From Pseudomonas spelaei (GTDB taxonomy: Bacteria; Pseudomonadota; Gammaproteobacteria; Pseudomonadales; Pseudomonadaceae), in the NCBI RefSeq assembly GCF_009724245.1, contig NZ_WNNK01000009.1, positions 62,001 through 126,000 of the forward strand: DNA of 64,000 bases, read 5' to 3'. The stretch's first letter is position 1. The number at the start of each line of letters is the position of its first letter. The notes under the pieces were generated by a model. The model saw nothing but the letters and a program-made list of their open reading frames with translations. It did not search any database and had not been told where the DNA came from. Both the position numbers and the translations under genes were made by a program. This document shows, piece by piece, positions 19,769 through 23,118 of this stretch.

Positions 19769-20587
19769 TCAGGACTTCCTGGCCTGCTGATACAACGGCA
19801 TCACCTTCGGAATCGCCGCCTGCAACGAGGCGATCCGGCTCTCGGAGGCCGGGTGGGTGCTCATGAACTCAGGTGGCGCCCCTTCGGAGGCCTTGGCCAT
19901 TTTGTTCCACAGGGTGATCGCCGCGTTCGGGTTGTAACCGGCCCGCGCTGACAACTCCAGGCCGATCAGGTCTGCTTCGTTTTCATTGCTGCGGCTGTTG
20001 GGCAAGGTCATGCCGTAGTTGGCCACGGTATCGGCCAGCGCCATGCTGTCCTGGCCCAGGCCGAACAACGCACCGGCGCCCTGCTTGGCCATCTGGATAC
20101 CGTAGGCTTTGGACATGGCTTCGCGGCCATGCTCACGCAAGGCGTGGGCAATTTCATGACCCATCACCGCGGCCAGTTCGTCGTCCGTCAGTTTGAGGTT
20201 ATCAATCAACGCACTGTAGACAAAGATCTTGCCGCCGGGCCCACAGTTGGCGTTCATCTCATCGCTTTTGATCAGGTTCACTTCCCACTTCCACTGGGCC
20301 GCGTCCGGACGGAAGGTCGGAGCCTGGGCAATCAGCCGATTGGCTATCGCCTGCACGCGCTTGGCGTTGGCGCTGGTCTTGTCCACCAGGCCCTTGCCGC
20401 TGGCGTCCCCCAACGTTTGCTGGTAGGACTGCGCGTACATTTGGTCGACTTCCTGGCTCGACAACATGCTGAACATGTATTGCTTGCGCTCAACGCCCAC
20501 GGCACCGCCGCTGGTGGTGTTGACCGACTGACAACCGGCCAGCAGCACCGCTGCGCCCAATGCACATACCGCTAATGATTTCTTCAT
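19769..20587 (-). CDS. M48-family metalloprotease lipoprotein (LoiP/YggG-like)
   Basis: A periplasmic zinc metalloprotease anchored as a lipoprotein. From ATG 20587 (GGGAG 6 bases upstream) it is 272 aa with lipobox LLAGC (Cys18). The catalytic zinc motif HEIAH lies in MGHEIAHALREHGREA near 138-153, and the third ligand is in NENEADLIGLELSARAGY. The family (YggG/LoiP, BepA relatives) handles protein quality control in the envelope. The open frame to 20686 upstream lacks a signal sequence. It probably forms a separate transcript; it is convergent with the Mn exporter. Confidence 0.9.
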   Translation of the reverse strand: MKKSLAVCALGAAVLLAGCQSVNTTSGGAVGVERKQYMFSMLSSQEVDQMYAQSYQQTLGDASGKGLVDKTSANAKRVQAIANRLIAQAPTFRPDAAQWKWEVNLIKSDEMNANCGPGGKIFVYSALIDNLKLTDDELAAVMGHEIAHALREHGREAMSKAYGIQMAKQGAGALFGLGQDSMALADTVANYGMTLPNSRSNENEADLIGLELSARAGYNPNAAITLWNKMAKASEGAPPEFMSTHPASESRIASLQAAIPKVMPLYQQARKS

Positions 20588-20701
20588 GACACGCTCCCTG
20601 AAAACATGGCGCGTATCGTAGGCGGTCAATTGTATCGGCGCTAGATACACCAGACGTTTAACTCGTAAATTTAGGACACATCCCACAACTCGGCTCGAGG
20701 T

Positions 20702-21322
20702 TTAGCCCGGCGTCAAACACTCCGGCCCGTTGAGCTTCGGATCATTCACCATGTTGGCCAGCACCCGCTCGCGCAACGCGCCAGGCTCACTGGCCAATAG
20801 CGCCTGCAAGGTATGCAGTGGCGTCTCGGGATCCAGCCACGCCTCTTGCCCGGCCGCATCGAGAATCAAGGGCCGCCGCTGACTCTGCGCGGCCTGAGTC
20901 ACCACCGCCGTACTCAGCCACACCTGCTCCTGCACCGGGTAAGCCTCCCAGATCGCAGCAAAGAACAGCGTCGAACCCTCCCCCGGTGTCAGCCAGTACG
21001 GCCGCTTGCGCTGGGTGCCACGCCATTCGTAGAAACCATTGGCTGGCAACAGGCAGCGCCGTTGACGGAATGCTTCGCGAAACATCGGCTGCTCGGCCAG
21101 GGTCTCCGCCCGGGCATGGGCTGGGGTACGGGACAAATCGGTGAGCCATGGCGGCGTGAGACCCCAACGCGCTCGCGCCAGGGTGCGCTGGCCGTCGGTG
21201 GCGCGCTGAATCAGCACCGAATCATTAGGAGAAATGTTCCACTGAGCCTGCTGATCCGCCGGAAAGCCCGGCAAGGCAGCAAATGAGGGGTTCCAGCGAA
21301 ACAGGGCATAACGTCCACACAT
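20702..21322 (-). CDS. SRAP-family (HMCES/YedK-like) protein with altered active site
   Basis: SRAP proteins form a protective thiazolidine crosslink to abasic sites in single-stranded DNA through Cys2. The 206-aa product begins MCGRYALF and has WNISPND near 28, WGLTPPWL near 53, GFYEW near 96 and RRPLIL near 149. Of the four E. coli YedK active-site residues (Cys2, Asn75, Glu105, His160), Cys2 and Glu99 remain. The NARxET asparagine is His69 (HARAET), and the H-x-R-R-P histidine is Ser147 (SQRRP). It may be a divergent branch with changed chemistry. It stands alone, preceded by DUF2007. Confidence 0.87.
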   Translation of the reverse strand: MCGRYALFRWNPSFAALPGFPADQQAQWNISPNDSVLIQRATDGQRTLARARWGLTPPWLTDLSRTPAHARAETLAEQPMFREAFRQRRCLLPANGFYEWRGTQRKRPYWLTPGEGSTLFFAAIWEAYPVQEQVWLSTAVVTQAAQSQRRPLILDAAGQEAWLDPETPLHTLQALLASEPGALRERVLANMVNDPKLNGPECLTPG

Positions 21323-21358
21323 GGGGCAACACGACTCTTGGAGAAACTGGCTGACAGC

Positions 21359-21619
21359 CTAACAGACCAGCACGTCGGGGAAGCTGTCGGGTTCCTCTCC
21401 AGGCACGGGCAACGCACCGTTGTAGGCAGTGATCAGCTCACGGGCGTAGTCAGCGTGTTCGTCCTCGACCGACAACGCCAGCAAGCCAAACACCGGCAAC
21501 TCCCCCACGCCACCGAGTAAGTCGCGACCTACCAGGTGCGCCTTGACTCCCTCACTGGCGAGCATGTGCTGGAGCAGTTCGCCTTCCATCAGATTTTCCG
21601 GCTCGTAGATTCGCTGCAT
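21359..21619 (-). CDS. DUF2007 domain protein
   Basis: An 86-aa protein of the DUF2007 (PF09413) family, annotated elsewhere as putative signal-transducing protein. The pattern is typical: MQRIYEPENLMEGELLQHMLASEGVKAHLVG, then a Gly-rich turn (GGVGELP) and a beta-alpha unit (LLALSVEDEHADYARELI). No membrane segment or catalytic motif can be seen. It lies 11 bases downstream of the small CPXCG protein gene on the same strand, so both probably share a transcript. Function is unknown. Confidence 0.82.
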   Translation of the reverse strand: MQRIYEPENLMEGELLQHMLASEGVKAHLVGRDLLGGVGELPVFGLLALSVEDEHADYARELITAYNGALPVPGEEPDSFPDVLVC

Positions 21620-21630
21620 GGGCGTACCTT

Positions 21631-21810
21631 TTATTCGTTCTCACTGCGCACGTTGAGCATCCATTCGCCATCATGAACCTGCAGGTCGAAAATAATGGGC
21701 CGGCAGCACACCGGGCAGTCTTCTATATATTGCTGATCGCCTCCGGACAGATCCAGTAACGCCGTGACCAGCTCTCCACAATAAGGACATTCGTACGACT
21801 CCTCTTCCAT
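21631..21810 (-). CDS. CPXCG-motif cysteine-rich zinc-binding protein
   Basis: A 59-aa protein starting at ATG 21810, which follows GGGAG by 6 bases. It carries two Cys pairs, CPYCGE near 8-13 and DCPVCCRP near 31-38, expected to bind one zinc. This is the CPXCG family, small and uncharacterised. The open frame upstream to 21903 has no SD and covers the promoter region shared with the divergent acyltransferase. It is followed at 11 bases by the DUF2007 gene. Confidence 0.85.
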   Translation of the reverse strand: MEEESYECPYCGELVTALLDLSGGDQQYIEDCPVCCRPIIFDLQVHDGEWMLNVRSENE

Positions 21811-21951
21811 CGCGGTCTCCCAAGTGACTTGTGCGTATAATCGCCGGTCTATTTGCAGGGCTATTTTCGTTTGATGCCATTTGCTCAGACTGCGCCCTGT
21901 CACTTATCGATCCAAACCTTTACTTACCCTAGCCGTTTCTAACAAGAGAGC

Positions 21952-23118
21952 ATGATGGGCGAATTCGATACCATCCGACCTTACAACGACAGCGAAGTCC
22001 CGGCAGTGCTGGCCAGGCTGTTCAGTGACAAGGCCTTTCTGGACATCCTGACCCACTTTCGCTTCCCGCGCTTTGCCGGCGCTTTTGGCTGGCTGCTCAA
22101 GCCCCTGATCAGTCACCGCCTGCGCCGTGAGTTTGCCGGCGTCACCACCGTGGCCACCTTGCAAGACAAAGTCGAGTTCTACGTCGACCATACCATTGAC
22201 CGGGCCACCGACGGCGTGACCTATACCGGCGTCGAACAACTCAAGTCCGGCATGGCCTACCTGTTCCTGGCCAACCATCGCGACATCGTGATGGACCCAG
22301 CCTTCGTCAACTATGCGGTTTACCACGCCGGCCTGCCGACGCCGCGCATTGCCATTGGCGACAACCTGCTGCAAAAGCCCTTCGTCAGCGACCTGATGCG
22401 CTTGAACAAAAGTTTTATCGTGCATCGCTCCATCACCGGGCGGCGCGAGAAGATGGCGGCGTATCAGTTGCTCTCGGCCTACATCAACCATTCGATTCGC
22501 AACGATAGCCAGTCGATCTGGATCGCCCAGGCTGAAGGTCGCGCCAAGGATGGGGATGATCGCACTGAATCGGCGATCCTCAAGATGTTCCACATGAGTC
22601 GCAAGGACGAGGCGTTTGCCGAAGTCATCCAGTCGTTGAACCTGACGCCGGTGTCCATCAGCTACGAATACGATCCGTGCGATGCAGCCAAGGCCCGTGA
22701 GCTGTACATCCGCGCGACTACCGGCACCTACAGCAAGGCACCCGGCGAAGACGATGTGAGCATTGCCCTGGGCATCACCGGCTACAAGGGCCGGGTCCAC
22801 ATCAACTTCGCACTGCCGATCACCGAGCGCTTTGAAGATACCAAGCTGTTAGCCATTGAGATGGACCGGCAGATTCTTGGTGGGTATCGCCTGTTTCCCG
22901 TGCACTATCTGGCGTATGCCCAGTGGAGCGACGCCGACCCGCAACTGCAGGTGCCCACCGCAGCCGAGCTGTTCCCGGCCGACGAGTTGGCCAAGGCAAA
23001 AGCAGAATGGGAGCGGCGGCTGAATGCCTGCCCGGCGGAACATCGGCCATATCTGGTGCAGCAATATGCGACACCGGTAAAGAACCAGTATCGGGTCAAG
23101 GCAGGAATTGCACTGTAA
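21952..23118 (+). CDS. PlsC-like 1-acyl-glycerol-3-phosphate acyltransferase
   Basis: A 388-aa acyltransferase of the PlsC superfamily. The catalytic NHxxxD motif reads NHRDIVMD near 105-112, with the glycerol-phosphate-binding region AEGRAKDGDD near 194 and LTPVSISYEYDP near 231. It is longer than housekeeping PlsC and lacks an obvious N-terminal membrane anchor, so it may be a side branch such as an ornithine-lipid or alternative lysophosphatidate acyltransferase. Two tandem ATGs (21952 and 21955) can serve as the start. A REP element follows the stop codon. Acyl acceptor not determined. Confidence 0.85.
   Translation: MMGEFDTIRPYNDSEVPAVLARLFSDKAFLDILTHFRFPRFAGAFGWLLKPLISHRLRREFAGVTTVATLQDKVEFYVDHTIDRATDGVTYTGVEQLKSGMAYLFLANHRDIVMDPAFVNYAVYHAGLPTPRIAIGDNLLQKPFVSDLMRLNKSFIVHRSITGRREKMAAYQLLSAYINHSIRNDSQSIWIAQAEGRAKDGDDRTESAILKMFHMSRKDEAFAEVIQSLNLTPVSISYEYDPCDAAKARELYIRATTGTYSKAPGEDDVSIALGITGYKGRVHINFALPITERFEDTKLLAIEMDRQILGGYRLFPVHYLAYAQWSDADPQLQVPTAAELFPADELAKAKAEWERRLNACPAEHRPYLVQQYATPVKNQYRVKAGIAL

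Follow-up and report, generated by a model that had tools for sequence, protein, structure and literature searches.

The window analysed here, a 64,000-nucleotide stretch from Pseudomonas spelaei (source assembly 6.57 Mb in 97 contigs), carries on its minus strand a gene for a 206-residue SRAP (PF02586) protein of a divergent core Pseudomonadaceae form (positions 20702–21322; ATG start, TAA stop). Among named genomes, Pseudomonas sp. CBZ-4 matches most closely (99%), with P. fluorescens-type names next at 97%, and database records label relatives 'SOS response-associated peptidase'. Upstream on the same strand lie the gene for a DUF2007 protein (PF09413; 21359–21619), 36 nt from the SRAP start, and, 11 nt upstream of that, a gene for a CPXCG cysteine-rich protein (PF14255; 21631–21903), which, judging from the spacing, is probably the first of the transcription unit. 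The downstream neighbour encodes an M48 metallopeptidase with what by eye resembles a lipoprotein leader (19769–20587, minus strand). No LexA-like box matching the one pattern tried was found in the whole window at up to two mismatches, and no sigma-70-like site in 20450–22100.

This neighbourhood is fixed. Within 6 kb of the SRAP gene in named Pseudomonas loci longer than 12 kb, DUF2007, PlsC and CPXCG genes were present in 68/68 and the M48 gene in 67/68; nine further family loci had DUF2007 and PlsC near SRAP in all nine cases, CPXCG in eight and M48 in seven. DUF2007 is not an exclusive mark of the branch, since a 29% match to DUF2007 also lies roughly 1.8 kb from a SRAP of family f20 with a full active-site tetrad (L220), on the opposite strand. 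A mobile or phage gene was ruled out by the constant neighbours in 68/68 loci and by the near-absence of the gene from plasmid and phage records: among 1,671 matching plasmid records none exceeded 60% identity, one of 51 matching phage records did so (MT836019), and the best 80 of 368 relatives on viral contigs reach at most 39% identity to the window-type SRAP. The single phage match (MT836019.1, 13094–13609) is 90.7% identical to residues 35–206 of the window protein and lies in a 14.7 kb faecal record without annotation, titled 'Bacteriophage sp.', which is probably a piece of Pseudomonas chromosome deposited as phage.

The Pfam SRAP model matches the window protein at E 1e-44 (153.1 bits; cut-off 27.1), and its AlphaFold2 model, built from 69 input sequences, has a mean pLDDT of 91.5 and a pTM of 0.89. 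At E ≤ 0.001 the model matches 21 PDB chains, comprising HMCES, YedK and the structural-genomics entries 1zn6, 2f20, 2bdv and 2aeg, the last four given as SRAP in the 2013 family description (PMC3765255). The best structural matches are to human HMCES (VIA-align Z 24.1–24.5 over 204 aligned residues, 6oov reaching 24.5), followed by the YedK–DNA entries 6nua, 6nuh, 6kcq and 6kbz (Z 23.1–23.7), and the alignments to both sets of structures span 199–204 residues. Given these whole-length matches and the quality of the model, the predicted structure is that of a complete SRAP domain, which belongs to the superfamily both by its Pfam score and by its modelled fold.

Within this fold, the active site departs from that of known cross-linkers. 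Aligned to E. coli K-12 YedK (L203), the window protein reads C/H/E/S at YedK positions 2, 75, 105 and 160, which bears out the first-pass annotation on both of its residue-level claims, that Cys2 and Glu99 are retained and that His69 and Ser147 stand where YedK has Asn75 and His160. The codons, all on the minus strand, are those of Cys2, the N-terminal nucleophile after removal of Met (21317–21319; MCGR start), His69 in the motif HARAET (21116–21118), Glu99 in the motif GFYEW (21026–21028) and Ser147 in a shortened loop (20882–20884). Two further residues shared with YedK are Arg71, the NAR arginine (21110–21112), and Arg149, the H-x-R arginine (20876–20878), which we take from work on HMCES to have a DNA-binding role. 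The His160 loop itself is shortened by six residues, beyond a single-site change, the distance from Thr142 to the RRP motif being 6 residues in the window protein and 12 in YedK. The protein thus has the SRAP fold, Cys2, glutamate and both arginines in common with YedK and differs from it at the two other tetrad positions, at an overall identity of 26–27% in the structural alignment. Human HMCES has the full tetrad, unlike the Pseudomonas branch, which lacks two of its residues, or three in members without Cys2.

These substitutions are a property of the family. In the family alignment of 206 sequences (199 distinct, 79 from named genomes), His occupies position 69 in 189, Gln in 17 and Asn in none, the short His160 loop occurs in all 206, and Glu99, Arg71 and Arg149 are unchanged in every sequence, those without Cys2 included. 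Position 147, by comparison, takes ten residues (Ser 101, Asp 27, Asn 24, Gly 13, Pro 13, Thr 7, Ala 7, Tyr 7, Glu 5, His 2). The earlier proposal of a divergent branch therefore holds in the form of a conserved Pseudomonadaceae clade marked by His or Gln at position 69 and the shortened loop; of the two residues suggested as its markers, the first serves and Ser147 does not. The two sequences with His147 (L231 and L241; HLRRP, short loop) both lack Cys2, and the histidine may have been regained or kept by chance. Among named Pseudomonas loci, taken as the best 80 of 575 matches, an open reading frame was obtained in 79, every one with His69 and [SNA][QL]RRP, which rules out a sequencing or annotation artefact; extraction required Cys after Met, so this set is uninformative on Cys2. 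The one locus dropped because the usual start was absent (L116) likewise encodes HARAET and SQRRP.

Each of the 89 genomes searched in the window's genus (G000–G088) had a SRAP match, 25 of them a single one by an eye count, and the gene was read in 12 of these 25, chosen for their short match. All 12 carry the divergent form, which can consequently be the sole SRAP of a genome; in two of them (G013 and G028) it also lacks Cys2. By these sequence comparisons, the divergent form is the ordinary core chromosomal SRAP of Pseudomonadaceae and not a single-strain oddity.

Loss of Cys2 is widespread in this family. When 298 family genomes were searched for the start motif, 233 gave a match, the other 65 being genomes that may lack the gene or have an altered start. 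Of the matched genomes, 161 read MCGR, one reads MCSR (G602) and 71 lack Cys2; the matched DNA of the latter encodes Ser (49) or Thr (22) at residue 2 and nothing else. They are distributed over g51 (21 Thr, 3 Ser), g128 (16 Ser), g123 (13 Ser), g1, the window's genus (9 Ser), g132 (3 Ser, 1 Thr), g119 (2 Ser) and g131, g133 and g50 (one Ser each), and a further g51 genome, G501, retains Cys2. Eight codons are used for these residues (AGT, AGC, TCC, TCT, TCG, ACC, ACG, ACT), which indicates that the residue is maintained even as its codon varies. Residue 2 is thus small in every Cys-less member, and a small residue at this position allows methionine aminopeptidase to expose the alpha-amine. 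Gly3, otherwise nearly invariant, is replaced by Ser, Ala or Thr in L463 (G602, MCSR), in L187, L188 and L195 (MCSR/MCTR) and in the g51 Thr2 members (MTSR/MTAR).

In a Cys-less set of 71 sequences, made up of the whole gene from 70 of the 71 genomes (all except G488) and L054, Arg4, His69, Arg71, Glu73, Glu99, Trp100, Arg149, Arg150 and Pro151 are invariant; 44 of the 206 positions are invariant in this set, so that invariance of a single residue is not rare. On a gene tree computed with residues 1–3 taken out, at least five changes at residue 2 are required (four on a coarser tree), the base of the family being poorly resolved. A single clade for all Cys-less rows was rejected (AU p 0.023), from which we conclude that Cys2 was probably lost at least twice; with the g50 row L462 left out, a single origin was not rejected (AU p 0.148).

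The tree also places the window protein in a supported branch of 18 rows that have Cys2 throughout. For YedK, the mutant study reports 'only a very modest' effect of N75A, cross-linking at least 10-fold slower with H160A (about 10-fold for H160A/Q), the worst performance with E105A/Q and severely slowed cross-link reversal with H160Q (PMC9436759). Since the window protein keeps Cys2 and Glu99, and the two residues it has lost matter less in YedK, it probably cross-links slowly, and the behaviour of H160Q fits a protein that reverses poorly. Of the earlier suggestion that it binds DNA without reversing a cross-link, the absence of reversal is therefore in keeping with the YedK data, while the behaviour predicted for the protein is slow cross-linking and not pure binding. 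It would be possible to stop there and regard the whole branch as slower SRAP cross-linkers of the known kind, in which Cys2 and Glu99 matter most and His69 replaces the hydrogen bond of Asn75, an explanation in line with the Cys2-containing 18-row branch and with a nearly normal N75A and a slow but competent H160A (PMC9436759). We consider it unlikely, as it leaves unexplained the loss of Cys2 in relatives at the same locus, including nine from the genus of the window.

Another way to preserve the known activity would be for His69 to have taken over the acid–base work of His160, so that the active site was rebuilt and not lost. His69 is present in 71/71 Cys-less sequences and Gln69 occurs only together with Cys2 (17/135), an association with a Fisher p of 0.0008 that assumes independence of rows which are in fact not independent. 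Glutamine is incapable of acid–base work, and its occurrence in 17 of the 135 Cys2 members makes such a takeover highly improbable.

The gene is under purifying selection, as judged from median dN/dS values of 0.08–0.44 across sub-groups (largest pair 0.57; NG86, dS 0.15–0.8). Most Cys-less groups have medians of 0.15–0.27 (g123 0.08), compared with 0.08 for the whole Cys set and 0.44 over 12 pairs for a small mixed Cys set, a rough comparison because the groups are of unequal depth; wider dS limits gave medians of 0.09 (Cys) and 0.36 (Cys-less), which are unreliable since deeper pairs are mixed in. Intact frames together with the medians of 0.08–0.44 rule out a decaying pseudogene.

Erosion of the SRAP active site is also seen outside Pseudomonadaceae. 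Seven sequences of family f8 (L010, L166, L167 and L171 in g8; L187, L188 and L195 in g66) keep Cys2 and Asn, replace Glu by Asp or Gln and have lost His, another order of residue erosion on the evidence of the alignment. Their genes are probably orthologues of the Pseudomonadaceae branch, given DUF2007 and/or PlsC near SRAP in the four f8 loci checked (DUF2007 in three, PlsC in four). In family f36, all four tetrad residues are gone in the 11 sequences read (L170, L173–L180, L183, L185), with Ala or Thr at position 2, HCAR, Ile, Val or Leu for Glu and Thr, Ser or Gly for His; R4 and the arginines of the NAR and RxP motifs are still present. A large gene that by eye encodes an M16-type peptidase follows SRAP in 5/5 f36 loci and in one f37 locus (L184), and two of the f36 genomes also have a full-tetrad SRAP (L186, L202). 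The f36 and f37 sequences form long branches in the tree and have neighbours different from those of the Pseudomonas branch.

These losses could mean that the chemistry has become unnecessary. According to this explanation the branch consists of pseudoenzymes that have lost their residues by drift, and only binding of abasic or single-stranded DNA, or a protein–protein role with the DUF2007 and CPXCG proteins, is left. Every tetrad residue is lost somewhere (Cys2 in 71/233, Asn in 206/206, His in 204/206, Glu in f8 and f36), the 11 f36 sequences lack the whole tetrad, and most Cys-less groups are under looser constraint. The invariant columns of a 52-row alignment (A1: M1, R4, P32, W53, W59, A70, R71, E73, R89, W100, R149, P151, W162) are scaffold residues and arginines and include no tetrad residue. 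Two observations speak against drift: Glu99 is unchanged in all 206 Pseudomonadaceae sequences, and residue 2 changes to Ser or Thr only, although single-base changes from Cys codons would also have added Phe, Tyr, Arg, Gly and Trp. We regard the pseudoenzyme explanation as a real possibility and place it a close second.

The reading that we tentatively put first is that the branch may be shifting from thiazolidine trapping to N-terminal-amine chemistry or to plain binding of abasic DNA, with the window protein part-way. The data show the residues, clade, locus, conservation and predicted fold of the branch, and its chemistry is inferred throughout. A fast and reversible thiazolidine trap would depend on the parts given up, namely the support of Asn75, the loop carrying His160 and, in a large number of species, the thiol of Cys2; binding of abasic ssDNA and use of the amine would rely on the parts kept, namely the fold, Glu99, a small residue at position 2 and two arginines. 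We propose the following hypothetical sequence of steps, in which (i) Glu99 would activate the alpha-amine of residue 2; (ii) this amine would form a Schiff base with an abasic aldehyde that is already ring-opened or with a 3'-end aldehyde; (iii) in species with Ser2 or Thr2 the Schiff base would end in hydrolysis or strand cleavage, giving a lyase-like protein; (iv) in the window protein the Cys2 thiol would still close a thiazolidine, slowly because ring opening would proceed without His160, and with poor reversal. The suggestion of changed chemistry made from the sequence at the outset thus appears plausible and gains weight from the relatives that have lost Cys2.

Such a scheme draws on what is described for YedK in the mutant study (PMC9436759). 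With C2A and with C2S a Schiff base can be trapped by borohydride, and C2A acts as an AP lyase; C2A H160Q forms the Schiff base at the rate of C2A with 2.5-fold slower lyase activity, and C2A E105Q is 10-fold slower in Schiff-base formation and 25-fold slower as a lyase, so that Schiff-base formation by YedK needs Glu105 and not His160 (PMC9436759). At a 3'-PUA end His160 matters less, although the N75A variant was weaker on that substrate (PMC9436759), and the two conserved arginines could contact DNA according to the 2013 description (PMC3765255). On balance the residues retained in the branch resemble the amine-chemistry part of the mechanism, while His160, Asn75 and the thiol resemble the part that serves fast ring opening and stable trapping. 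The Cys-less relatives would be natural counterparts of YedK C2A and C2S, with Ser or Thr at position 2 and the glutamate kept, and the C2A structure (PDB 8d2m) matches the window model at Z 23.5; they differ from these mutants in also lacking Asn75 and, in all but two of 71, a histidine at position 147.

Several points weigh against the amine-chemistry reading. The motif around Glu99 is strongly conserved and the residue may be structural, and the glutamate is also lost in f8 and f36. The looser constraint in most Cys-less groups is as expected of an eroding enzyme, a single Cys-less origin is acceptable without L462, and His147 is present in L231 and L241. In formaldehyde-blocked YedK, whose Cys2 is unavailable, H160Q suppressed strand cleavage (PMC9436759), and loss of the histidine would thus hamper a lyase step on ring-closed sites. 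The most specific version of amine chemistry, in which the housekeeping SRAP of a large bacterial family is no longer a suicide cross-linker and has become a turnover enzyme, a Glu99-dependent abasic-site lyase working through the alpha-amine of an N-terminal Ser or Thr, with the Cys species caught part-way, is in our view doubtful; if true, nature would have run the YedK C2S experiment. The repeated change of Cys2 to Ser or Thr with Glu99 kept is, we think, surprising and directly testable.

The 2013 description gives the SRAP cysteine, glutamate and histidine as absolutely conserved (PMC3765255). A core gene of a large genus that is without this histidine in 204/206 sequences, and whose relatives at the same locus lose the cysteine, indicates that function is not simply transferable from YedK or HMCES. 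Cys-containing and Cys-less members at one locus form a natural series on SRAP roles beyond trapping, which bears on whether a thiol is required at residue 2 and on the possibility of turning a suicide protein into an enzyme. No paper on this Pseudomonadaceae branch was found among titles and abstract openings of the published literature, most subscription papers being outside reach.

The window genome also encodes a second SRAP (L001; contig C14:94285–94926; Pfam SRAP E 6e-47), so that one genome holds two types, a divergent core form and a canonical phage-like one. L001 belongs to the same Pfam family as the window protein and differs from it in having the full tetrad (MCGR, NAR, FEW, HDRRP); its identity to viral-contig SRAPs reaches 92%, and a lysis-type gene, named by eye, lies nearby. 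The full tetrad was present in 157 of 160 viral-contig SRAPs (156 on first scoring, plus L267), in scans whose residues are partly built in, as they favour the EW motif (first scan) or pieces of the canonical query (second). The incomplete ones are L307, which has N/E/H and no MCGR start found, and L322 and L329, which have C/N/E and in which the frame stops and the contig ends, respectively, ahead of the His position. Among 50 class-level SRAPs, a non-random set of the 30 best-scoring and 20 hand-picked from lower in the list, 45 have all four residues, and the alignment is doubtful for three of the five misses, which are very divergent rows. One genome of the window's genus, G034, has nine SRAP matches, compared with one to four in the other 88.
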